64,000 nt of DNA from NCBI GenBank assembly GCA_021234155.1, contig JAJEKV010000031.1:799614-863613 (forward strand), read 5' to 3'. Positions 1-23,177 of this stretch are shown piece by piece; position 1 is the stretch's first letter; the number at the start of each line of letters is the position of its first letter. The notes under the pieces were generated by a model. The model was given only the letters and a program-made list of their open reading frames with translations, made no database searches and was not told the DNA's origin. A program made the position numbers and the translations under genes. Source of the stretch: Isoetes taiwanensis. Taxonomy: Eukaryota; Streptophyta; Lycopodiopsida; Isoetales; Isoetaceae.

Positions 1-905
1 TCTTGTGCAGCAAGTGAGAAAATTTGAGAGAGGACCTCTGCTACAATTGTGAAGAGCAATGGTGCCAATGGGCAACCTTGACAAATGCCACGACCAACCG
101 GAAAAAGAATCTTTGAAGGCTCTCCTTGAAAAAAAGAACAAAGCCAGAATGAGCGTAATAGTGGAGTCTCATTACATCGCCGGTGAAGTGTGCACCAAAG
201 CCAAGATGCAAGAGACACTTTTTCAAGAAAGTCCAATCAACACTGTCATAGGCTTTTGCAAAATCCAACTTCAAGTAAACAATGTCATGAGCCTGCAATC
301 TTGCCCAATAAATACCCTCATAGGTAGCCGCTACATTATTTAAAATACACCGTCGCGGCAGGAAACCTGACTGTGTAGAGGATATAGAATCAGCAAGAAT
401 GTCACGAAGCTTTTGAGCATAAGCTTTAGCAAAGATCTTGTAAACAGAAGACAACAAGGTAATGGGACGCCAATCAGAAATTGAAGAAGGCTCCTTACAC
501 TTGGGGATGAGGGAGATGCAGCCCGAATTAAGGAGCTTATCCAAATAAGTCGTTGTCTCTTGAAATCCAAAAAGCATTATAGACATCCTCACCAAGCCCG
601 GTACCAATACTTCTGAAAAAACTCCATAGGAATACCATCAATTCCAGGGCATTTGCCTTGCTTCAAAAGAGATGTAGCATCCGCCAAATCATTGAGAGTG
701 ATCTCAACTTCCAGACTAGCCTTTTGCTCTTCAGAGACAATAGGGTGAAACTTTGCAAGCAATGCCTCTTGAAAATCCTGCTGAAAGGGAAGACGACGGG
801 CCGCAAAGAAGCCAGAAAAATGATGATGCACAAAATTCTTGAGCTCGTCTGGGTCAGAAATAAGAGAACCATCAGGAACTTCGAGCGACATCAAGTCATA
901 AAACT
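1..905 (-). mobile_element. L1-type LINE, 5'-truncated, reverse transcriptase remnant
   Basis: Two overlapping minus-strand frames (about 905-589 and 607-41) encode consecutive parts of a plant L1-like reverse transcriptase. The upstream frame carries the linker with a PGIDGIPMEFF motif. The downstream frame carries DWRPITLLSSVYKIFAK, QSGFLPRR and LKLDFAKAYDSVDW, which contains the first catalytic Asp block. The two frames overlap near 600, so at least one frameshift is present and the copy is not functional. The YADD block and C-terminus lie beyond the window or are lost. The 5' junction is placed near 905, where the reading frame changes from the interrupted host-side gene (a VLDFNGVLGKF motif) to LINE sequence. 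Confidence 0.85.
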
Positions 906-3650
906 TGCCTAAAACCCCATTAAAATCCAGAACAAGGAGAATTTCAGTTAACCTCTTGGTTTTTCTTGGTTGAGGTTGTATTGGACTCGTTGAGCAGTCT
1001 GCATCTTGTCCAGGATCCGGGGTTTCTTTGTCAACTTCATCGCCTGCATCCGCATTTGGTTCATGTTCAGCACCAAAACTTTTTTCTGGTGAAGGACCCC
1101 GTGCAGAATGAATCTCAAGGGAATTAATTTTCGCCCCTAAAATAGATGCACTAGGAATCTCTTCGTGATGGCTTCTAATTGCAGTAGCATTTATCTCTCT
1201 AACATAATTGAAATGAGGAAGACCACAGAAAAATACAAAAAAAAAAAAATCATGTATGTGGCATCTGTACTTACTTGATACGACTGCATTCAGTTCACTA
1301 TCCAAATTTCGTTTTGGAGTCTCCACACCGTCAGCAGCTGGGATTGACTTAGGAGTATCAAATGGGGTAAATTCTAGGTACAACCGAGAGGTATCTTGCA
1401 GTCTCATAACTGATCGAGGCGTGGATAACTGTTGGATATTCTTGGTCTCAAATTTCTGCAATTCTGCAAACACTAAGTCAGTAGACCTGTGACAACATCA
1501 GTAAATATTAGTTAAGACACTTACTTGTGTCTATTGGTTCTTGTGGTACCACTCGAACACCAAAAGCTAAAAGCCATGTCTCAGTCATAATGTGGGCACA
1601 ACTGGGGCTGCAGCAGGTTCTAGAGTGTCTGCAAAACAAATTCAAAATCAATAGAGTTTTTAGACGAGGGTTAAAGATGATAATATTTACCTCAAATGGT
1701 GTGATAGACATGGAATGTGATACTGGTGACTGCATTCTGCTATCACAACTGGCAACATTTTACCCTCCCATTTCAGACAACGTCCACAAAATGAACAACC
1801 TTCATCAACCTCTTCTTCTGCCTTAGGAAGCATTGGAAGTGCAGGATCTAAAGGAGTGTCATGACCACTACGCTCAGAAAAAATCTCAAATCTTTGCATT
1901 TGAGGTTGCAGCTCCAGCAGTAAGTCTTCACATGCCTTTAGCTCAATTTCAGTTTCTGCTAGTTCCTTATTTAATTGATTCAGCCCAGGCAACACTGTAC
2001 CATTTAGCTCTTTATCCTTTAGTTCGCTTACAACCCGAACACCCTCTGCTGCTTTCGGGCTGCCATGATTGATTGCCATCTGTGCAAATCAGCTCTAATT
2101 TCTGATGCTTTATGCTCCATCAACTCAATCTTTCTTTTGATATCATTTTTCCTATCCTCGTTTGCTTGCAATCGTTGCTTGCATCTATCAAACCTAGCTG
2201 ATGTTGCAGCCAACCATTCCTTCACAAGTCTACCATAGTCTGCAAAACAAAATACTACGTATATGTCAGCCTCCTAACATAGTAAGCCACGTACTGATGG
2301 AAAACCACAATCATACACCACACAACACAAGGTAGTCTCTACACACCACCACATACCACACACCACACAACATACGCTGCACAGTACACACCAAACAACA
2401 CGCTGTGGTGGTAGCAAGGAGTGGTGGGACATTGTGCAGGGTGGTAAAGTGTGGTGGTGGTGGTGGTGTGTGTGGTGGTGGGGGGGTGGTGGTGGGGTTT
2501 GGTGGTGGTGGTGGTGGGGTGTGTGGTGGTGGTGGTGGAGTGTGGTGTGGGACATGGTGGAGTGTGGTGATGGGGTGTGGTGGTGGAGTGTGGGGTGGGG
2601 TGTGGTGTGGTGTGGTGGTGGTGGTGGAGTGTGGTGGTAGTGGATTGTGGTGTGGGACATGGTGGAGTCCGGTGGTGTGTGGTGGTGGTGGTGGAGTGTG
2701 GTAGTGGTGGTGGAGTGTGGTGGTGGGGTGTGGTGGAGGGGTGTGGTGTGGGACATGGTGGAGTGTGGCGGTGGGAGATAGTAGAGTGTAGTGGTGGGAG
2801 ATGGTGGGGTGTGGTGTGGGACATGGTGGATGCCAACAACTCACCGTCCACCGACCACACATACCTCATCTATCATTCTCGCATCCATTGCACGAAATGC
2901 CCCACAGATGGCATCATAGAGACACAACATGACAATACAGCCAGCATGATGCAAAATGGTAGTAGACATACCTGATTCTTGAAGTGGATTTGATGTTACC
3001 TTTTCTATGTTGATAGAAACAATCTAGGTCAAGCTTGAGATTTTTTTCTGTTGTAACACAACTAATAATTGAACATACCTGCAATGGCATGTTTTGGTCT
3101 CAGAACATTGCTCTGCTTTTCTATTTTGATTGTGAGTTCAGATTGAATGTGTGGTCTAGAGTAACCTGATTTGGTTTTTTCCCTATCATCTTCATCATCC
3201 CTGTCACTTTTACTATTTTCCTCCTCGTCGGGTTGGATTTGCCTATGCTTTCTCTTGGGTCTAGAAGAACCTGCCTCTCTGCTTTCTCATCGAGTTTTAT
3301 AATAATCCGAGAAGCTCTTCCAATTAACAGCCTCCCCCTTTATATGCAGATAATAAGCCACTACCCAGGTTCCAGGAGCCATTCCACCCCATGTATGTGG
3401 CTTCCCTGTAATTCTTTTGTAAATTTGCATGAACTCTTTGTATTGTTCATTGCTCAGATTCTTCAACCTATACAAGAAAACATATGCCTTAATTTTTCAG
3501 TTTGAACAAAACGTTTGGAGGAAAATACCTGTAGCCAGATTTATTTGGAACTCTGTCACCCCAAAGCTTCTTTAGATCTTCATGGGGCACAATCTCTTGT
3601 TTGAGGAGAGATTTCATCGTGTAACCAGTGGCGTTCAATTCTGACTCCAT
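905..3650 (-). pseudogene. WG/NW-domain, coiled-coil, RING-like protein, seven exons, cut by LINE
   Basis: The start ATG is at 3648-3650. Exons supported by GT/AG ends are 3529-3650, 3079-3467, about 2865-2971, 1691-2239, 1525-1628, 1275-1486 and about 905-1230. The N-terminal domain has LKKLWGDRV, then GYRLKN, GGMAPGTWVVAYYL and VNWKSFSDYYK; the same residues recur in the genes at 4333 and 13226. An acidic/basic linker follows, then a coiled coil (about 1850-2230), then a RING-H2-like finger CSFC...CSHQYHIPC...CCSPSC split over exons 4 and 5. The last exon ends with LLVLDFNGVLGKF, which resembles motif I of FCP1/NIF phosphatases, exactly where the LINE begins. Defects are an in-frame TGA near 3290, a frameshift near 2060 and the LINE insertion. 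Molecular function is unknown. The RING suggests a ubiquitin or SUMO ligase role, which is inference. Confidence 0.7.
2402..2830 (+). repeat. GTGG/TGG-rich minisatellite in an intron
   Basis: About 430 bp of imperfect GTGGTGG, GGGTGTGGTG and GGACATGGTGGAGTGTGG units. It lies in the intron between the third and fourth exons of the minus-strand WG/NW-coiled-coil gene. The Trp/Gly and His/Pro/Thr-rich frames through it are translation artefacts of the repeat. Long purine-skewed G-runs could form G-quadruplexes, which is inference. Confidence 0.95.
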
Positions 3651-3868
3651 TAGGGTTCAATCGGCAAGAAGCGGCAAAAGAAGAGAAGAAGAGGTGATTA
3701 TTTCTTAATTTAAAATGAGGGACGATGACGTGGCATAAAATTCAAAATAACCGACGCTCATTAATTCGCACTCCCGCAATCTCCGCTTCGGTGTGCACCA
3801 CCCGATTCTACCACAAAGGTGGTGCCAAAATGTGGCGTCAAAATGCGCATTTTTGATACACCACAGCG

Positions 3869-3879
3869 TGCTTTTACCC
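3869..3879 (-). repeat. Candidate transposon terminal inverted repeat (GGGTAAAAGCA)
   Basis: The reverse complement reads GGGTAAAAGCA, identical to the first 11 bases of both ends of the transposon at 12974-22219. It lies about 220 bp upstream of the ATG at 3650, as the 12974 end lies about 250 bp upstream of the homologous ATG at 13226. Both ends also share a nearby AATGCRCATTTT block. The opposite end is not visible and may be outside the window or destroyed by the LINE. Confidence 0.55.
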
Positions 3880-12849: not shown

Positions 12850-12973
12850 TCAGAGCATGAAAAGAGACAAACATATATGCTGATCCCAATACCTTTTTAG
12901 GTGAATAGTGTTGATAGGATTTGGAAGTGGCATCCCTGAAGTCAATTCCTTCAGCCAATAAGAATTGGTGCCT
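12850..12973 (-). pseudogene. Gypsy integrase C-terminal segment, left of the nested transposon
   Basis: The minus-strand frame reads TNSYWLKELTSGMPLPNP, then NTIHLKRYW, the typical C-terminal end of plant gypsy integrases (G-x-Y-x-L, LP-N, HLK-Y). The frame is in phase with the integrase segment ending at 22220 once the intervening transposon and one GCCT copy are ignored. It is therefore the displaced end of the same ORF. Confidence 0.9.
12970..12973. repeat. Target-site duplication, left copy (GCCT)
   Basis: GCCT directly abuts the TIR at 12974. The same four bases directly follow the right TIR at 22220-22223. Confidence 0.85.
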
Positions 12974-12995
12974 GGGTAAAAGCATGAAAGGGTGT
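12974..12995 (+). repeat. Left terminal inverted repeat
   Basis: Perfect inverted match of 22 bp to 22198-22219. The first 11 bases are also found at 3869-3879 in reverse orientation. Confidence 0.92.
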
Positions 12996-13225
12996 CTATA
13001 AATGTAGCCCTTTTTGTACATATACATATGTACCGAATGCACATTTTTGGAATAACTGTCATCATGACCAGCTAGTAACTGCCATGATTAATGGCTATCC
13101 ACTACTCTGAACCCGCAATTATCGGATTTTGAAATTCTTTCCCAAATTCTTTCTTGGTTTGCCTCTCGTTCACTATCCCGCCCTTCCTTCTCTTTGAATT
13201 CGATCACTTAATTCTTCATCTAGCT

Positions 13226-14436
13226 ATGGCCCCAAAACGCCCCGATGATGAGTGCTTGCTCATCACCACAGCCAAAGCAAGATGCCGGTGCTTCCGGCGG
13301 GAATTTTACCTCAAGGAGTTTACGTTTGGGTTCCGAGGTGATCCAAGCCAAAGACCTCCGGATAAACATCGAGAGGCCCACATACCCAACCTAGAGATGG
13401 TTATGAACGAGGTATGGGGTGAAGCTCCAAAAAAGCAGACGAGGATTCAAGGAAGGGAGAATCCAGAACGCATGGAAAGATGATTTTTTAAATATTATGA
13501 ATTGGTTTATGGCAAGAAACAAAGTTACAAATCATTATATTTCAACCTATTTTGCCGAGCATTTGCTCTTCACTTGAAGGGACGGCTTGTTGATTGGATG
13601 GGCGTGGCTAGGACCGCCAAAGATCTTGCCAAAACCCTCATTTCGAGGCGTTCACAGGGACCCTACAACAGGTAAATCCTCAACTATCAAACAGGACATC
13701 GTATTGCAGCAGAATATTAGAGCCCTGGGTTATTCTAGATCAGATGTTGACACAATAAAGCAGTTACTTAAGCATGGGTTGGAGGAGAAAACTAACCTAT
13801 TGAATGAAGTAGAAGCACTGGAAGAAAAAAGGAGGGATGCATTGAAGGTCATCAGCCGGATTGAGGGTAGAAAGGATATGCTATCCGAAGATCTGCAGCA
13901 GATCTGCCAGAAAATAGATGAGACAAAACAGGAATTTGACAAATTGTCCCAGGATCCTGCTGGAAATCAAGTTATGTTCGGAGTGTTGAAGTACAAGTTG
14001 GAAGACTTGGTTATGAGTAGACATGATAAAGAACAGCACTCTTCTAAGCTAGAAATTGGTTTGCAGGAAGCAACTAAAGACATTGAAAGGCATGAAATCT
14101 CAATTGAACAAGCAAAGGAAAAACTTAATTGCATTGAATTGGTTCAGCAAAGGCATTCACAGATTTTGGATTTCATGGGGAGAGCAGGACCTATTGTTCT
14201 GCACCCGAGGCCCTACCCTGTAGGAGCTACTTCTATAGAGCAGTTCATCACATTCAGTTCATGTACCTGTTGTGGCCAAGGCTTTGGCAAAACTGGTTTG
14301 TTGCTGCTAGCTCCATGCAGAGATGCTTATTGCCTCTTCTGCTTGTGTTATCTGGTCCATGAAAGACAGAATTGCATAAAAGGTTGCATCTGGGATGAGG
14401 GCATTCGAATTCAGCTTGGTTTCCCTGCTGTGAAAG
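13226..14436 (+). pseudogene. Transposon ORF1: WG/NW domain, coiled coil, RING-like finger
   Basis: The chosen ATG (13226) begins MAPKRPDDE. The N-terminal domain contains NEVWGEAPKKQ, FFKYYELVYGKKQ and KGRLVDWMGVARTAK, matching the copies at 3650 (minus) and 4333 (plus). After a frame change near 13600-13700 comes a long coiled coil (about 13715-14160, heptad-rich, Glu/Lys/Leu). A cysteine cluster follows: CTCCGQGF, then APCRDAYCLFCLCYL, then CIKGC. A tail, GIRIQLGFPAV, matches FGVRVV after the RING of the 905-3650 gene. The exon ends at donor AAAG|GTATG (14436). An in-frame TGA at 13482 and the frame change indicate decay. The role in transposition is unknown; a ligase-like function is inference from the RING. 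Confidence 0.7.
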
Positions 14437-14499
14437 GTATGCATTGCTCTCAACTAATTTAAACTTATATTTCTCTTCATTCATATTTGTTATTGTAAT

Positions 14500-14960
14500 C
14501 TGCATAGTTCTACATGTATGGCTTTCAGTGCATTGCTATTCCTTGTACATGTATAACTTTTAGTGTACGTCTGTAAGCAGAGGTACATAGGCATATATTT
14601 GCTTGTTTATTGATGCTTTTATTTTTGAGCTTGGACTTTGCGGTTGTATCGGGTTGTACATGTCTCTAATGGAGTCTACATCTGCAAATAGATGTACATG
14701 CATTTATCTTTAGAGTGCATCTGTAGATGGATTCATAAGTATGTGCATTTTTTACATATATGTGCTTTTTTTTGGGCATAGATCTACATTCCCTAACTGG
14801 ATACCTGGGTACATCTGGGTACATCTGGGTACATTGAGGTACCTCTATGTACATTGAGGAACATGTACATGTACATTTGGCTATAGTTAAATGTAGTTAC
14901 GTACATTTGGTACATTTTATGTACATGAAATGTACATGCTTGGCGAAATGTATCGATATA
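14500..14960. repeat. GTACAT-rich cluster 1
   Basis: More than ten copies of GTACAT/ATGTAC, including a triple GGGTACATCT run near 14808-14835 and GTACATGTACAT near 14865. It lies downstream of the RING exon of ORF1, probably in intron or 3' UTR. Confidence 0.85.
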
Positions 14961-15269
14961 TTTCTCATTAGTTCTGTTTTCATGTTCTTTTATGTCTATT
15001 GAAATTTAGATCATTTGTTTGTTTGCGGATGAGGTCGTTCCTATCCCGTATGCTTTTAATGGTCGATGTTCTTGAGCCATCTCGCATCGACTCTCTTTAC
15101 GATTTTACGCGAGCATAATAAGGCATCGAATCAGACCCTCAACCTTCCAGCTCGTGATCACCAATGACATTTACAAAGTGCGGTAATAGAACCATCTCGC
15201 AGCGGTGCCTCCCTCGAACATGGCAAAGTGAAGTTGAGGAAATTGAGAGGATGGCACTTGAGAAAGCTA

Positions 15270-16920
15270 ATGCAGGTTGCGGTGCGAGCCTTCAATGATC
15301 GCTGCAACAAAAACTCTTTCATCACCAAGTGCTAAATTAGTAATTGGAGAAGCTAAGAAAGATTCTTACTGTCCCCTCAAAGATCATCTGCGGGTCCCGC
15401 CTCCGGACATTACGAGAAAGCTACAAAGGACACAGATCCAGATTTTAACCCGGAGATACCGGGGAAGAGGAAGTCGAGTTGGTAGTTGAGTCCACTCCAA
15501 AGAGGAGGCAAAAGAATCTTTGTGATGGCACTCCAAAAGGAAAAAAAGGCAAAATCTCCGGCAACAAAAAATGTCCTCCAGAAAAGAAAAAAATCCCCGT
15601 GCAAAAAAGCCACCACCACCTAGAAAGAGGTATGTCCAAGATGAACTAATTTTGTTAAACATCTCAGATTTATGGTAATTAACCACATTTTTTTTGTACA
15701 TAGGACACGATCCGCAGTAGTGAAGGAAGTCGATCCCGATCCTTCCGAAGTCTGAACCGGAAGAGGAAGAGGATCTACAAGCAAATATTGATGTGATAAC
15801 AAATAAGGTGCGGCAGTCCTCGAAGATGCTGGGCGGTGATGAATTTACAAGGTGAGTAATATACAATTGATTACAATAGATATATTCTTTTGCTAATCTT
15901 TGTTGTTTCCTTGTGCAGTTTAGTGAACCGACCGAAAAGGTTGGTTCCATTCACTCCTTATAGGGACCGTCCTCCTAAGCCCACCTTTTATCTTTCAAAG
16001 TGATGTTGACGAAGTTCTCACTGAAGTCGGACTTGACCTCTAAGATGGTAGATGTCTATGGGAGGTAGGCTAGCATTTCAACATATTTATGTTATTTCAT
16101 TCCCTAAGTCACTCATCTTATGTATTAATATGTAATCTGGATTTGTGTGCGTGGTACCTTTGTAGCGATCTTCCATCCGATTGGAAACACAAGTTTTTAC
16201 TTGCCGACCCGGACACCTTCCGAATTTTGTGAATTCCCTCAAGAACGAGGGGTCTGCACGAACACAAACATAAAGGAAGGGCTGGATGGCATTTTGATTG
16301 CAAGATGCCAATACATATTTGTTCCAATTACGCAAGGCCCAAATGTGGCATTGGCAATACTTGTGCTTGCTGGTCCACCGAAAAGCTCTTTTCCATCTAT
16401 AGCTAGCCCAAGTATCTGAATCCTCTCTCTCAAAAGGCTATGTACCCGATGCTAAAATGGTCCGTAGTAAGTATGAGTTTACGTTTTGTTTTATGATTTG
16501 ATTATTCTCATATTGCAATTTCTTATGCTTGATTTATTCTCACATTGCAATTTTGCGAGGTTTCATAAGCTTGTGATCAATAACATGATGCTCGGATCCA
16601 ACAGGCTTAAACCATGGTAGGAAGAACTTTGATGCTCCCGTGTTACGTCCCTAAAATGCGAGAAACTAGTACCGGCAACCCTTGCATGTACATTGTGGCT
16701 TACATGCACAAATTCATAGATCTTGCCGTGGTTGATGCACACCAAGCTCCATTTTTGTAAGTAGAACATGTTATTTTCCTATTAGTTATTTGTTGGTATA
16801 GTCCTCTAATACTTGTGCACTATCTCGGATGACACCCGGTTGGTTCAGCGATGCCTATGCCAAGTCAATGAGGGATCATCTAATGGAGGCATTAATTGTA
16901 GAAGGCTAGATGAATATACA
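15270..16920 (+). pseudogene. Ulp1-like cysteine protease gene of the transposon (decayed, intron-containing)
   Basis: A basic, Pro/Lys-rich region (about 15370-15640: KGKKGKISGNKKCPPEKKKI) is followed by an Asp/Glu-rich stretch (PEPEEEEDL). The C-terminal part then resembles Ulp1/SENP peptidases. It has YIFVPI followed by KWHWQYLCLL (His at about 16345-16350) and, one exon on, TSTGNPCMYIVAYMHKFID (Cys codon at 16684-16686). Spacing and hydrophobic pattern match the His-to-Cys block of C48 peptidases. The Asp/Gln residues are not certain because of frame changes. Such enzymes cut SUMO-like proteins. Ulp1 genes are known cargo of some plant transposons (for example KI-MULEs), but this element is not a MULE by its 4-bp duplication. 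Exon limits are approximate. Confidence 0.5.
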
Positions 16921-17299
16921 AGCGGTTGTTCCTACACGAGGGTAGATAGTCCCTTTGACTTGTTTGTAAATTACAGTTTTGTATGAGCCATGCTCCGAGC
17001 TTCTTTGTACTCAATAAGTAATGAAAAAATTAATTTATTTGTCTCACTTACACTGTGCAAATAACAATCGTGTAATTATCAATGTGTTTTCTCAATTGTG
17101 TGTCCGAAATGTAATTATAAATTGTGAATCTCAAGTGTTTTCTTGCGACAGTGAATCATCTAATTCAGGAGAAAGCTCATTATCTTTGACTTAAATTACG
17201 TGTTGGGCAAGAGTGTGCACAAGAATGAAAATATTAACTCAAGATACCAACAGATCCGGAAAGATGAGCTTCAATTTAATATAGGAAAGCAGGTTTTCT

Positions 17300-18495
17300 C
17301 TTGCGCAGGCGGGGTTAGCATCACTTGTTAGCATTTGTAAGAGAAGGGTTTGATGTTGCCATCCGGTCTTCACTCACTTCTAAAAATCTTCAACCAATTG
17401 TGGAACATATTTGTGATGCTTTTTCCATAAAGATGAAGTTTGTTTACGGCCGGGCGGTGTTTGGACTCACGCCACACAAACACCCTCTTGAACCTCAAAG
17501 GGTTGTTTGTGAAACCATTAAAGCGTGGTATGGAAAGAGTACCCGAGTACTATGGACATACGGTTACGATCGACGCATTTAAAGATACAAATCCACTTTG
17601 AATCTCAGAGGAAGCTACATATGTCCTTTCTCTTGGACACCGATATTAGGCGGTGACGGTTGCTTGTCATGGAGCTCATTCCATGGCTTAATGGATTCAA
17701 AATGGCGAAGATGGTATAGTTTATGTGAAAAAGCATCCAATGACTAATGCGGCCGGATGGCATATCGAGGCGGGTGGAACAGATTTTTGCCGGCAAACTA
17801 TGGCGCACAACTTGGGTGCTCTGGCGCCTAAATTTAGTCAATATACGGAGCAAGGAATGGAGAAAGCGCCATCATGTTATTGGCCTCTCGACTGCCCATT
17901 GTTGGTACGAGACTTTGGTGATGTACAAATTCAAATGTTATGAATATATGTATCAAAGTTTTTGTTCATTGCACTTGAGTACTCGTTCTTCTTGTCTTTC
18001 TTATTGGTACAATTATGAGTGTGTATACATAATTAAGTGATCTTCATTTGCTTTGTAGATGAATGGACTGAAACACAAAAGACTATTAAGAAACTAAGAG
18101 ATAGAGTTCTGCTTTGCACCCGAGGTAATACAAACCAACACAAGTTTGCAAAAGTACATAGGGTTGGGGACCGATTATCGCCTCTATACTTCTTTGTTCA
18201 CGAACTTTGGGAAAAGGTTGAGCAAATTGAAAATTATGAGGAACGAGCAACCATGAAAGGTATATTGGCACAAATCACTTGTTGCACAACCCTTGGGGAA
18301 GGCACGTGTCCCGGAAGATGCAGCGAGCCATGTAGGATGGAAAGGTTTGCCCGTGGCGTACGTGCTATAGAAACCGCATGGACTCTTGCTTTAGAGGATA
18401 TCTCTTCACCTCTCCTACGGGGTGGAAGACATGATGCAATAGTCATAAGATATCGGGCTCCTACCGACATTTTGAAGCTTGGTCATGAATTATGA
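17300..18495 (+). pseudogene. Transposon ORF of unknown function (several exons/frames)
   Basis: Three plus-strand blocks appear to belong to one protein. 17325-17582 has VEHICDAFSIKMKFVYGRAVFG. 17660-17935 has ACHGAHSM, then HPMTNAAGWHIEAGGTDFCR, then CPLLVRDFGD. 18058-18495 has TRGNTNQHKF, SPLYFFVHELWEKVEQI and CPGRCSEPCRMERFA. The last frame begins after a probable acceptor (tttgtag at about 18058) and ends at TGA 18493-18495. I do not recognise the family. A Cys cluster near 18310 (CPGRCSEPC) could bind metal. It lies between the Ulp1-like gene and the convergent transposase. Confidence 0.5.
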
Positions 18496-18674
18496 GCCAT
18501 GCTCATTTTTAGGTGTGTTGTATTTATGTCCACAATATAAATATATCAACCATTTGTACATGAAAACACGTCCATTTCTTATCTTTGCCATGAAACCATT
18601 TTTAATGTTTATGCAATTCAACTTTCTTGTGTTCAATTCTAATCAACTTACACTTAACAAATTTTTATAATATT

Positions 18675-18750
18675 TCGAATGTACAACGAGATGTACATAA
18701 GATGTACATTGTTGTACATCTTATGTACATTGATGTACATAATGCACTTC
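18675..18750. repeat. GTACAT cluster 2, between convergent genes
   Basis: Five GTACAT/ATGTAC motifs in 75 bp, partly arranged as an inverted pair around 18705-18725. It sits in the convergent 3' region between the plus-strand ORF (ends 18495) and the minus-strand transposase (ends near 18925). Confidence 0.8.
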
Positions 18751-18924
18751 TGGTAGTCCAGTTCTTCGGGTTCTTATAACAAAGTATTACAATATTTCGG
18801 GAAAGTACTACGAATCGACTTAGTCCATGTCATCTACAATTGCTTGGAAGTTGTGATAATAATGTCTCATGGACTTCATCCGGCAAGTGAAATCTTTGTG
18901 CTTGCCCCTTCAAATGTGTTTTAC

Positions 18925-21900
18925 TTTCTTGAATGGGATTGAATCCCAATCACCGGTTCTGCAGGTACCAAAACATTCTTAGTAGGAAGCGGTTTATACT
19001 TATTGTGGCGGCACGGGATTAGTTCATAATATTGTCCTTCAATGACACTAGTGCCAGCAGAGTATTCATTTCCATAGTCATCAATTGAATCTTCTTCCAA
19101 TGCATGCTTTTCCCTGGTGCACATGAGAACATAGTATGAAACACCTTCCACATTGTCTGGTGCTGCAAAAGACACAAATACATCTGAAAAGCTACAGTGT
19201 CATCTAAACCAAACCTCGTCCTCTGATACAAAACATCCACATCATTTTCAGCTTCAACACGAGAGGCAATATGATCTGTGGGCTCCAAACTTTTTAGAGA
19301 CCATTCTCCACAATGTTTAATGTTCTCACAATTCAACCAATTGAAGTTAATGCAAGCATCACAAAAGCACGAGAGTGGTCTGCATAGCAACTTTGTTGGA
19401 TCTGGCTGGTTTATAGTTGACACGTAATGTATCTGCTGAGTACCGGGTAAAGTCTTGCAATTGAATGCTTGCCTGTTCACATCTGTTTTTCCAACCTCCC
19501 AAAACACCCTTTCACAATCCGATTCCTTGGCCCTTAAAACCGCACAAGCGTTTACGCTATCATCCCGGCATGCCATTTTGTTTTCTCTGCTTAAAACAAG
19601 CCACAACTTTGCTATACCAGCCTTGCCATCATGTGTGCCTTTCCCATGGCCGGATCCAAAGAAATTCCATATCACTTTCGAATTTTATTTTCAACATGGT
19701 ATCTCAGATTCCATACCATGCCCGTCTTGATTTGAATTGAGATGCACAACCATCCCACCACACACATAATGAAGGTTTATGTGTCCACCACCATTATTCT
19801 TAAGCCACCCCAAATGCAATTTAAAACCATGTTGCACAAAATGAGTGTCATGCTTCCCGTCATCCGAAACATAGAAATGCACTTTTTTTTTAAGCTTATC
19901 TTCTATTTTCATCATTGAAATATGGACCAAAATACTAATTTGATCGGGATTCCAATGCTCTCGGATTGCACTTCCGTCCCCGTTTCAATGTGTAGTTTTT
20001 ACAAAGTCAACAACGGACAACACACTATTATCCGGGAGTTTCTCAACACATCTTTTAAACTGTTTGCTCTGCCGATTAATGTCTTTGTAAAGTTATGATC
20101 GTAAAACTTAGCAAGCTGATTTTTCATGTTCTTTAACAAAACAGATGCTTTGTCATTCTGATCAACTAATCTAAGCCTTCGATGTACCTTTTTGGATGGC
20201 TCATTGACATATGCATATACTTGCCGAGTCCACATTCACGAATTCCATCTTCCTCGTTTGGACATATGTCTAATTTCTTCACTCCACATTCATCACATTA
20301 AGCCTTTGATGCATTTTAGTTTATGCCATTCATCCGTCACATATTTCTCAAACCGTTGACCTCCACAAGATACTAACATTATCAAAAGTCTTCTTGTTTG
20401 CTTGACATACTCCATTGTTTTCTTTGGGATGCACGGAACCGCGGCGGCAAGTGCAATTAACATGTAGGGATCTCCTCATATCATTGAAGGCCTTTTACGT
20501 ACAGATCGCTTTGCTCATGTTTGACACAACAACATGTGTTTCTCTCCTTCAACTTCCTTATGCAATCGGGTTTCGATACTTCCCGAGCTGTCAAGGCGAA
20601 TTTTGGTATCGGGATTACGATATACAAACCGTTGATAAAGCTCGGTGCAATAACAAAAGCATTAAAGACCATGTTAGCAAAATGATGTCGACACCGATGC
20701 CAAAGAGTATTGAACTATACTATTGTACAATTAATGTATGTTCTATGTACATAAAATGTCCATCCAACGGTTCCAGCGATGCATTCTTGTACATCTAATG
20801 TACATCTAATGTACATCGGTACATCTAATGTACGATAACGAGTTCCCATTGAACATCCAATGTACATCCAATGTACATCTAATTAATGTTCCAATATTAG
20901 TACATCACATTAATGTTACAATATTAGTACAACTAATGTACATATGTCGATTTGTTTGGCTTCATTACACGAAAAGTACACTAAAATGTAAAATGATGTA
21001 ATTTTGATATTCAAGTACATGTAAATGCATTTTGCATGGACATGTAAGTGTTAATGGATGTACATCTAAAAGTACCTAATAGCACATCACCGCAAGATTT
21101 CTGCTACTATGTAAACAATGTATAAATGTAAACAATGTAAAATGCAATACATTTCATGAAAACCATGTGTATTCATTAACAGTGTCACTCGAACGGGGGA
21201 CTAGAATGTACGAAGAAAAGTCATGAAAGAATTTTGGAAGAAAACATAATCTCCAAAACTGAATTGATTCAATTACAAGAGCAAACACGTGAGATATCAA
21301 GGTATTGTATTGCTTGTGTTCTCCTCTTCATGACATCTCTAACCTTTGGTGAAACTTTGGTATTGTCAAGCCAAAATTCACGAACGACATTTGATTGAAT
21401 CATCGATTCTATTTGATCTTGGCATCCTTCCTACCAAAGCCCATACATTTGCTCCACTTAATGACATTATCTTCCTTCTTCTTGCAGCTTTGGATAAATT
21501 TCTTGGTCAGTATCTTTTTAGCAATTTTGAAGAAACATTCTTGTTTATATCTCCTTTTTTTCCAACAATCATTGATAATAGCGTGAATGTTTTGCGACCA
21601 ATTTATCTTTGCTATTAGCGGACTTTACTTCTTGAAGCCCATCTTTCAAGTTTACGATCATTGATTTCATAACAATAACCCGGAAGGATTTCCAATTACA
21701 GTTCGAAAACAGAAAAAAGCCTTGTCATCTTGCAACAAACGATCACAAAAACTAATCTTTGATCACGATCCGGCGTTTGCCGAAGAATCGAGGATGCAAT
21801 CCACCAACTCAACACGCTTCTTTATTTGTTTTGTGGCATAACACCGGCCAATGTTGGCATACTTGCGCTTAGAACCATCACTTCCATTGGAATTCTCACC

Positions 21901-21945
21901 CTCCATGAACAGATTGAAATTGATTTGTATTTCTTGTAGATTCAA
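18925..21945 (-). pseudogene. Transposase-like protein (SDD / WNFFGSGHGKG family), decayed
   Basis: The start is at 21945. The order of conserved blocks on the minus strand is: a basic N-terminus (KRKYANIGRCYATKQIKKR); an FWLDNTKVSP motif (about 21350-21400); a CCCVKHEQ Cys/His block (about 20500-20560); VVDF (about 20000); SILVHISM then VHFYVSDDGKHDTHFVQHGF (about 19850-19930); IWNFFGSGHGKGTHDG (about 19630-19675); and a C-terminal NVEGVSYYVLMC, then EGQYYELIP, domain (19175-18925). The block order matches a repeat-associated protein family of plants and invertebrates, seen also at 5130-5845. Acidic residues in VDF, SDD and the later blocks may form a DDE/D-type site, which is inference. At least five frame changes and a GTACAT-rich insertion break the ORF. 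Confidence 0.65.
20690..21180. repeat. GTACAT-rich cluster 3 inside the transposase gene
   Basis: Dense CTAATGTACAT and CCAATGTACAT units from 20740 to 20960 with satellites to 21180. The cluster separates the FWLDNTKVSP block from the Cys/His block of the transposase, so it occupies an intron or is an expansion within the gene. Confidence 0.85.
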
Positions 21946-22197
21946 TTGGCATGTGTTTGCTTCGAATTCGTTAGGTGTTTAGTCCCGTGAAAGGGGAATT
22001 TCGGAAGGGAGGGACGGATCCATTCGAATTGGTTCGGTGGTTCGGTGGTTAACCAAGAATTTCGGGGGGAATGTCAGGGATGATCTTGCAATCATTGCAT
22101 ATCTGACACAAAATGACAAACCATTGTATCTTGATGTACATCTAAAATGTACCCCAAAAAAGCACAAATTCGTCCTTCAATTCAGTACGATGTACGT

Positions 22198-22219
22198 ACA
22201 CCCTTTCATGCTTTTACCC
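22198..22219 (-). repeat. Right terminal inverted repeat
   Basis: Reverse complement of 12974-12995 without mismatch. GTACAT/GTACGTAC motifs lie just inside (22130-22200). Confidence 0.92.
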
Positions 22220-22223
22220 GCCT
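22220..22223. repeat. Target-site duplication, right copy (GCCT)
   Basis: Same four bases as 12970-12973. Both copies border integrase coding sequence on their outer sides. Confidence 0.85.
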
Positions 22224-23177
22224 GCAGGTTCCAACACCTCATAGGGGCCCTCCCAAAGATTTTCAAACTTACTAGCAGAATCTTCCCTTGATTTATTCCA
22301 CTTCAGAACTAATTCTCCAGCCTTGAAAGTACCTTGTATTTTATGAGCGGACTTTGAAAGCGACCAAATCCTTGGCTTTTTTAAGCAAATTAGCATTTTC
22401 GGCTTCCATTCTATATTCTTCTAAATGCAAAAGGGCATCCAGTCTTTCCTGCAAGGCATACTCAAAAGGCAAACACAACTTATGAGCTAACCTTAGAGAT
22501 GGAAGCTCAAGCTCTACTGGAAGCACAGCTTCAATGCCATAAACTAAGTTAAAAGGAGTATGAGTGGTTGCTGCTTTGATGGTGACTCTATAAGCCCATA
22601 AGGCATCCACCAATTTGACATGCCAATCCCTTTGATTATCATCCACTGTTTTCTGCAAAATACCCTTCAAAACTTTATTAGTAGCTTCTGCTTGGCCATT
22701 ACCTTGGGGATAGTAAGAGGAACTCTTGGTATGTTTGACTTTAAGAATGGTCAATAAATTAGCAATAACTTCATTCACAAAAGGGTACCTCTATCGAATG
22801 TAATTGTAGAGGAATACCAAACCGTGCAAATATACTCATGTAAGAACTTTCTTTGTTGTAATGACATTAGCCCTGCTTAAAGGAATTGCCTCTGCCCATT
22901 TGGTAAAATAATCTGTAGCTACAATAATGTCTTTGATGTTGCCCCGCGTAAGGGGGTTAATGGGACCAATATAATCTAACCCCCATATTTGAAAAGGTCC
23001 TGGGAAATTATGGGGTTTAGTGCACGGTGAGAAGGATCCTCTTGCCAAATATCGGCACTTGTGGCAAGACTTTATAGCAATATAACAATCTTTAAATATT
23101 GTAGGCCAATAATAACGACACGAGAATTTTCTTAGCGTAGTATCTCCAAAGAAAATGGCCTCCACATACTCCTTCAT
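22220..23177 (-). pseudogene. Gypsy integrase, main part
   Basis: Minus-strand frames 23177-22836 and 22778-22220 hold the integrase. A zinc-binding region (SCHKCRYLA), the first catalytic Asp (WGLDYIGPINP), the second Asp region (ATDYFTKWAEAIPL) and the Glu block (YYPQGNGQAEATNKVLKGIL) are in order. A chromo-like/C-terminal GPYEVLEPAG segment is broken by the nested transposon at 22219. There is a frame break between the two pieces near 22780-22840. Integrase would insert the cDNA copy into the genome. Confidence 0.9.

Follow-up and report, generated by a model that had tools for sequence, protein, structure and literature searches.

A high-copy DNA transposon with accessory genes, probably of the Sola superfamily, in the quillwort Isoetes taiwanensis

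The window considered here is a stretch of 64,000 nucleotides from contig JAJEKV010000031.1 of the quillwort Isoetes taiwanensis. Between its positions 12974 and 22219 lies a DNA transposon with perfect terminal inverted repeats (TIRs) of 22 bp, nested in a gypsy element and flanked on both sides by a 4-bp duplication, GCCT. The transposon belongs to a high-copy family of 9.2-kb cut-and-paste elements in this plant. Judging by its sequence, a gene on the minus strand encodes a transposase in which a D...D...D pattern is invariant, and the most probable placement of the element, made by comparison with published descriptions, is in the Sola superfamily. The account as a whole (a high-copy transposon with a putative DDD transposase, probably Sola, that has kept accessory genes) seems to us the best explanation, and one that deserves considerable though not complete confidence.

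A first-pass annotation, made from the sequence alone, had placed the borders of the element exact to the base, and that placement holds. The two TIRs are identical in inverted orientation at 22 of 22 positions, the sequences differ immediately inside them, and the length from end to end is 9,246 bp. When the flanks are joined with one GCCT kept, the minus strand reads ...FENLWEGPYEVLEPAG up to the join and TNSYWLKELTSGMPLPNPINTIHLKRYW after it, and the join is free of stops. We take this reading to be the C-terminus of a gypsy integrase; Pfam gave no support, in that the adjacent open reading frame (ORF), 22344-22790, searched alone, did not match an integrase. The genome itself supplies the empty site. 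A 250-bp query made from the joined flanks has 1240 candidate matches, and all 40 that were scored cross the join (query position 100/101), with identities of 93-98%, so that the insertion into gypsy sequence with a rejoining frame, also proposed in the first pass, can be seen against uninterrupted gypsy copies. The left border recurs as well. A query of 521 bases (12960-13480) gave 591 candidates at first look; 40 were scored, the window itself among them, and the other 39 begin at query positions 6-15, within 9 bases of 12974.

Twenty copies were fetched, and 12 of these hold both ends. A 4-bp duplication, read by eye, is present in every one of the 12, as it is in the window and as had been claimed for it: TTCA, AAAT, AAGT, AGTG, TATA, ATTC, TTAT, ATGC, GGCA, TAAT, CCCT, and TTTT. 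These are 12 different duplications, and no fixed target was seen. In the remaining 8 copies, even when up to 5 mismatches were allowed, the fetched stretch showed no right end. The stretch fetched for copy L011 is shorter than the others (the contig ends there), and copies L014 and L016 are interrupted by other DNA, according to blastn. Copy L011 contains a copia-like retrotransposon, 708-3802 from its left TIR, recognised by eye from its gag/pol reading.

The exact TIR occurs at 796 places in the host genome (388 forward and 408 reverse), and its reversed control at none in either orientation. Among 100 TIR places listed, there are 25 inward pairs: 13 spanning 9.1-9.8 kb, 10 spanning 252-265 bp, and 2 that are longer. 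The other 50 places have no partner in the list. The ten short pairs (L043-L052) are miniature inverted-repeat transposable elements (MITEs) that have the same TIR as the element. Nine of them show a 4-bp duplication, while L043 is without a matching one. One of the MITEs, L045, agrees with the element in the window over 48 bp at its left end and over 43 bp at its right end. Two others, L047 and L052, are oriented oppositely.

The first pass had also noticed a convergent transposase-like gene, and the minus-strand gene does have relatives in moss, charophyte alga, conifer, and fish. A read-through composite of the window's transposase found 17 homologous proteins at E<=1e-3, one of them from fish, and a profile built from 15 relatives found 240 at E<=1e-5. 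Among the 120 profile matches that were listed are proteins from Ceratodon purpureus (a moss), Klebsormidium nitens (a charophyte alga), and the conifers Taxus chinensis and Cryptomeria japonica. Three aspartates (D222, D305, and D346 in the numbering of P0001, the last within the motif HGKG..DG) are invariant in 54 of 54 aligned relatives, hand-picked for length from 122 listed; fragments and the frame-broken gene of the window itself were left aside. The three codons persist in the window (20006-20008, 19752-19754, and 19628-19630), in different frames. The conservation and order of the aspartates suggest a catalytic triad and an enzyme of RNase H type. Three pieces of the window's transposase and an intact relative of 631 amino acids (aa), L029, matched no Pfam family at E<=1, and a comparison with PDB sequences found no relative (the best E, 0.77, was to a ribosomal protein). 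Pattern matches in prokaryotes (156) and viruses (40) were considered as possible relatives, and tblastn confirmed none.

Transposases of this kind are plentiful in the same genome. For one related protein, the transposase P0002, a first look gave 12,209 candidates, of which 76 were scored, with stop-free frames up to 674 aa. Six loci belonging to other lineages (L029, L030, L033, L036, L037, and L039) have transposase frames of 583-640 aa without stops, and for this reason active elements of those lineages possibly exist. The lineage of L036 and L039 begins GGGTCCAAGCACAATAGGGCGT, judged from the point where the two copies cease to be alike, and this end has the frame GGGT..AAGCA..A.AGGG, as do the ends of the window's element and those of a sister family described below.

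How does the element fit among known superfamilies? The published descriptions give Sola elements a DDD transposase, a 4-bp target-site duplication, TIRs of 11-1124 bp, and a size mostly of 2-9 kb, with some above 15 kb (PMC10741241). They also place Sola1 in Physcomitrella and Sola in Azolla and Ceratopteris (PMC10741241, PMC9033089, PMC6786969, PMC6890710). The quillwort element shares the 4-bp duplication (in the window, 12 of 12 large copies, 9 of 10 MITEs, and 10 of 10 copies of the sister family), an aspartate pattern that would suit a DDD-type transposase, the range of TIR length and element size (22 bp and 9,246 bp), and the presence in seed-free plants. Because of the fit in duplication, pattern, TIR length, and size, Sola is the probable placement, in keeping with the first pass, which had called the duplication compatible with it. 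The likeness is one of described features, and the quillwort element differs in its accessory genes for a coiled-coil protein and a NIF phosphatase; we know of none described for Sola. A comparable case is that of the Sola2-Fanzor chimeras of dictyostelids, which likewise combine a 4-bp duplication and a short TIR with a transposase and a captured non-transposase gene (PMC3627910). There, however, the captured gene is Fanzor, and in the quillwort element it is NIF and an orphan coiled-coil gene.

It is possible, though distinctly the less probable course, that the element belongs to an unnamed superfamily (or to Academ) and shares with Sola merely the length of its duplication. Duplications of 4 bp occur also in Ginger, Academ, and Chapaev, the transposase pieces and the intact relative have no Pfam family, and Sola itself is defined by homology. 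What speaks for Sola instead is the combination of an invariant D-D-D with a 4-bp duplication, as described for that superfamily, and the reports of Sola in moss and ferns. Other superfamilies fall by the duplication. Kolobok and piggyBac duplicate TTAA, which is found in none of the 12 large copies. CACTA and PIF-Harbinger make 3-bp duplications, while the copies have 4 bp, and four bases match in 10 of 10 copies of the sister family. Mutator-like elements (MULEs), Kaonashi included, make duplications of 9-11 bp, as against 4 bp in large copies, MITEs, and sister copies alike. The exclusion of MULE, hAT, CACTA, and PIF in the first pass, argued from the 4 bp, thus stands. Its option of a Ginger element, with an integrase like that of gypsy, does agree with the 4-bp duplication but is very improbable, since Pfam found no integrase (rve) domain in the intact relative L029 and the sole integrase-like reading is that of the host gypsy, outside the TIRs. 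A Ulp1-carrying MULE of the Kaonashi or Vandal type is scarcely credible: the length of the duplication refutes it, the transposase has no Pfam match, and there is no match to Ulp1. Ulp1 domains are indeed reported in plant MULEs, and the Kaonashi/Vandal MULEs are described as non-TIR elements (PMC13317346); these resemble the quillwort element in carrying extra genes (VANC) but have another transposase, and the Ulp1 domain is unconfirmed in the quillwort element.

Several observations weigh against the account preferred here. The placement in Sola was made by features (duplication, aspartate pattern, TIR length, and size), and it is conservation that suggests the DDD as a catalytic triad. The long open transposase frames all come from other lineages and not from the window's family, which stands apart on a long branch (1.03 changes per column) in the non-animal part of the transposase tree, a tree of 34 rows with many weak forks, in which 146 aa of copy L020 represent the family. 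The other end of the L036/L039 lineage was not found; its TIR is matched exactly at 17 places, but no two of these face each other at close range. Finally, neither the window nor the 20 fetched copies (12 of them complete) have an open transposase main exon, the longest stretch there being 272 aa. Because of this last point the family can be called at most possibly autonomous, and the transposase that moved the element may have been supplied by a different copy or a different family.

The same point could be taken further. Perhaps the element is a large non-autonomous one, with dead cargo genes, that owes its spread to another family's transposase. The absence of an open main exon from every fetched copy would fit, as would an identical TAG, following IYS in the degenerate region 15950-16960, that is found in 17 of 17 aligned rows, off the spots where CG and CHG sites vary. 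We nonetheless regard this as rather unlikely. The TIRs are exact at hundreds of places, the core of the transposase is open in L020 over its 272 aa, which carry two of the three Asp motifs, and the clustering of differences at CG and CHG suggests that many of the frameshifts are artefacts of sequencing.

CG and CHG are the symmetric methylation contexts of plants. In an alignment of the window with 11 complete copies (the internally deleted L020 was left out), there are 1.94 changes per site within 2 bases of CG/CHG and 0.36-0.40 elsewhere, and about 40 small insertions and deletions (indels) per kb and copy near such sites versus 6 elsewhere. The window is 97.0-97.8% identical to the 11 copies away from CG/CHG sites and 77.6-83.7% identical near them. 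The longest runs free of change extend over 103 and 96 columns; random placement of the changes would lead one to expect about 24. The clustered differences include many transversions and indels, so deamination does not suffice as the only cause: C>T and G>A make up 1064 of the 3074 substitutions near CG/CHG, and to these are added 1196 small indels. The Isoetes taiwanensis assembly is built on R9.4.1 nanopore reads that were polished with short reads (PMC8566536), and nanopore reads are subject to errors at methylated C (PMC8486125). Since the differences cluster at CG/CHG and the assembly is a nanopore one, many frameshifts in the window's family may be miscalls at methylated cytosines. The pair L036/L039 shows the clustering strongly (45 transitions, 21 transversions, and 23 small indels near CG/CHG; 3, 2, and 7 elsewhere), but the pair L032/L035 does so far less (100 of 171 events near CG/CHG), and because of this second pair the reading as miscalls is unproven. 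If the frameshifts are indeed miscalls, then broken frames are weak evidence that the family is dead.

Coordinates of the element, its genes, and the neighbouring sister element are given in Table 1.

Table 1. Features of the element and of the sister element at the left of the window (positions in the window)
Feature	Position	Strand	Basis
Left target-site duplication, GCCT	12970..12973	.	Direct sequence inspection
Left TIR, 22 bp, GGGTAAAAGCATGAAAGGGTGT	12974..12995	+	Sequence inspection; exact-match genome count
Gene A, coiled-coil protein with Cys-rich end, frame-broken in window	13226..14440	+	411-aa stop-free stretch in copy L022 spans gene A
Probable gene A intron, 20 GTACAT/ATGTAC words in 14474 bin	14440..15000	+	Coding lost, GT after last codons
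Degenerate coding region, earlier called Ulp1-like	15950..16960	+	No Pfam match
Gene B, NIF/FCP1-type phosphatase domain (PF03031) and C-terminal part, frame-broken in window	17150..18495	+	Pfam
GTACAT array between convergent genes	18680..18745	.	Word search
Main exon of transposase, frame-broken in window	18920..20670	-	Homology and alignment
Probable transposase-gene intron with GTACAT array	20670..21290	-	Boundaries approximate
Probable N-terminal exon of transposase	21290..21930	-	Open for 260 aa in L018; tblastx matches upstream of intact relatives; boundaries approximate
Right TIR, 22 bp	22198..22219	-	Sequence inspection
Right target-site duplication, GCCT	22220..22223	.	Sequence inspection
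Apparent end of second, related element; TIR ACACCACAGCGTGCTTTTACCC at 3858-3879	1-3879		Sequence inspection
LINE-type reverse transcriptase, directly after sister NIF-like start	41-637		PF00078, 53 bits
Sister ORF with NIF-like start KRLTEILLVLDFNGVLGKF	589-1497		By eye; no Pfam match
Sister ORF, coiled coil and RING-H2-like finger	1687-2088	-	zf-rbx1, 18.9 bits (Pfam cut-off 31)
Long low-complexity stretch, CCACC/GGTGG-like, within sister element	2274-2975		Seen among ORFs

The borders of the genes within the element are those that we infer, and gene A possibly has further exons beyond the stretch listed. A composite reading of gene A gave no homologue at E<=1e-3 among 4438 candidates from 5.8 billion proteins, in a search by a tool whose sensitivity is word-based. 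The first pass had called it a RING/coiled-coil gene. No RING or coiled-coil model of Pfam reaches its cut-off with gene A, but the description survives in part in the sister family, whose corresponding gene has a RING-H2-like finger, itself below the cut-off. The Ulp1-like protease of the first pass fares worse. A composite reading of that region matches no Pfam family at E<=10, and one of its two longest readings contains ...GPNVALAIL... in 15 of 17 sequences (the window and 16 copies), with Asn-Val at the place where Ulp1 proteases have a His-Trp pair.

Gene B, by contrast with its earlier label as an unknown ORF, has a start that exceeds the Pfam gathering cut-off for PF03031 (21.8 bits) in two single copies, L027 (29.6 bits) and L023 (24.6 bits); the composite reading reaches 32.8 bits. 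In this it is like the NIF/FCP1-SCP phosphatases, from which it differs in that its first motif is DLNSVL in L027 and DLNYVL in the window, and a phosphatase activity is a prediction. The NIF reading has no match among PDB sequences at E<=1, and NIF pieces searched for near 12 transposase loci (L029-L040, with flanks of about 1.3 kb) gave a best E of 0.20. The accessory module of an orphan coiled-coil/Cys-rich gene and a NIF phosphatase gene was probably kept for a purpose, because it recurs at least partly in the sister family. Most likely it serves to influence host factors or silencing.

The sister family, represented by the related element whose end lies at the left of the window, is also large. 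At no more than 1 mismatch, its TIR is found 611 times in the genome (control, 0). Among 100 of these places listed, 11 inward pairs of 9.5-10.6 kb were recognised by eye, others being longer. The ends were fetched for 10 of the 11 pairs, and all 10 show a 4-bp duplication, against a chance agreement in 2 of 90 mismatched pairings; in 1 of the 10 the duplication is TTAA. At C823 a transposase match is situated about 3 kb inward of a sister TIR, and at C1036 there is another about 3.6 kb left of the window. From these positions, the sister family in all likelihood has a transposase of the kind described here. Towards its N-terminus, gene A has a short stretch that is identical to that of the sister's gene at 11 of 39 positions (E 8e-6 in a single comparison).

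The element is rich in one short word. GTACAT and its complement ATGTAC occur together 65 times, where 4.5 are expected, and are densest at 14474-14974, 18474-18974, and 20474-21474, that is, in two probable introns and in the gap between the convergent genes. Each of three 340-base stretches containing a MITE holds 5-6 of the words. They could be binding sites of the transposase, targets of an anti-silencing factor, or a product of simple repeat growth, and a binding function is weakly favoured. In Vandal MULEs, short non-coding motifs are recognised by an element-encoded anti-silencing factor (PMC13317346). By analogy, the element might possess an anti-silencing or host-modulating system of its own, convergent with VANC, in which the gene A protein and the NIF phosphatase would act through the GTACAT/ATGTAC words and free the family from methylation. 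The CG/CHG pattern of the differences between copies is a hint of the methylation that the idea invokes; the RING-like finger cited for it belongs to the coiled-coil gene of the sister family. So specific a system is a speculation with a small chance of being right.

Transposition itself may be pictured as follows. The transposase, whose gene runs on the minus strand from the right TIR into the element, would be a DDD nuclease, presumably of RNase H type. It would bind the TIRs, cleave at GGGT...ACCC, and attach the ends to a staggered cut of 4 bp, and it would also mobilise the MITEs of about 260 bp that have the element's ends. In addition, the element carries its convergent accessory genes for the orphan coiled-coil/Cys-rich protein and the NIF-type phosphatase. 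Of all this, the ends, duplications, empty site, family, MITEs, transposase homology, and NIF domain are observed, while catalysis, the placement in Sola, the gene borders, and the purpose of the accessory genes are interpretation. As far as can be judged, then, the mechanism is an ordinary one, and what sets the element apart is its accessory genes, its host, and its abundance.

Exact ends, the length of the duplication, MITEs, and a transposase are now given for an abundant group of lycophyte DNA transposons, of which no earlier description was found in the open-licence literature searched. The clustering of differences at CG and CHG serves as a warning to those who would read decay or age from nanopore assemblies. 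A model of the transposase would aid the annotation of seed-free plants and gymnosperms, since P0002 has so many first-look candidates in this genome and the named relatives extend from a charophyte alga to conifers. Through the accessory genes, which recur in part in the sister family, the carriage of host-type signalling genes by a DNA transposon becomes open to test.

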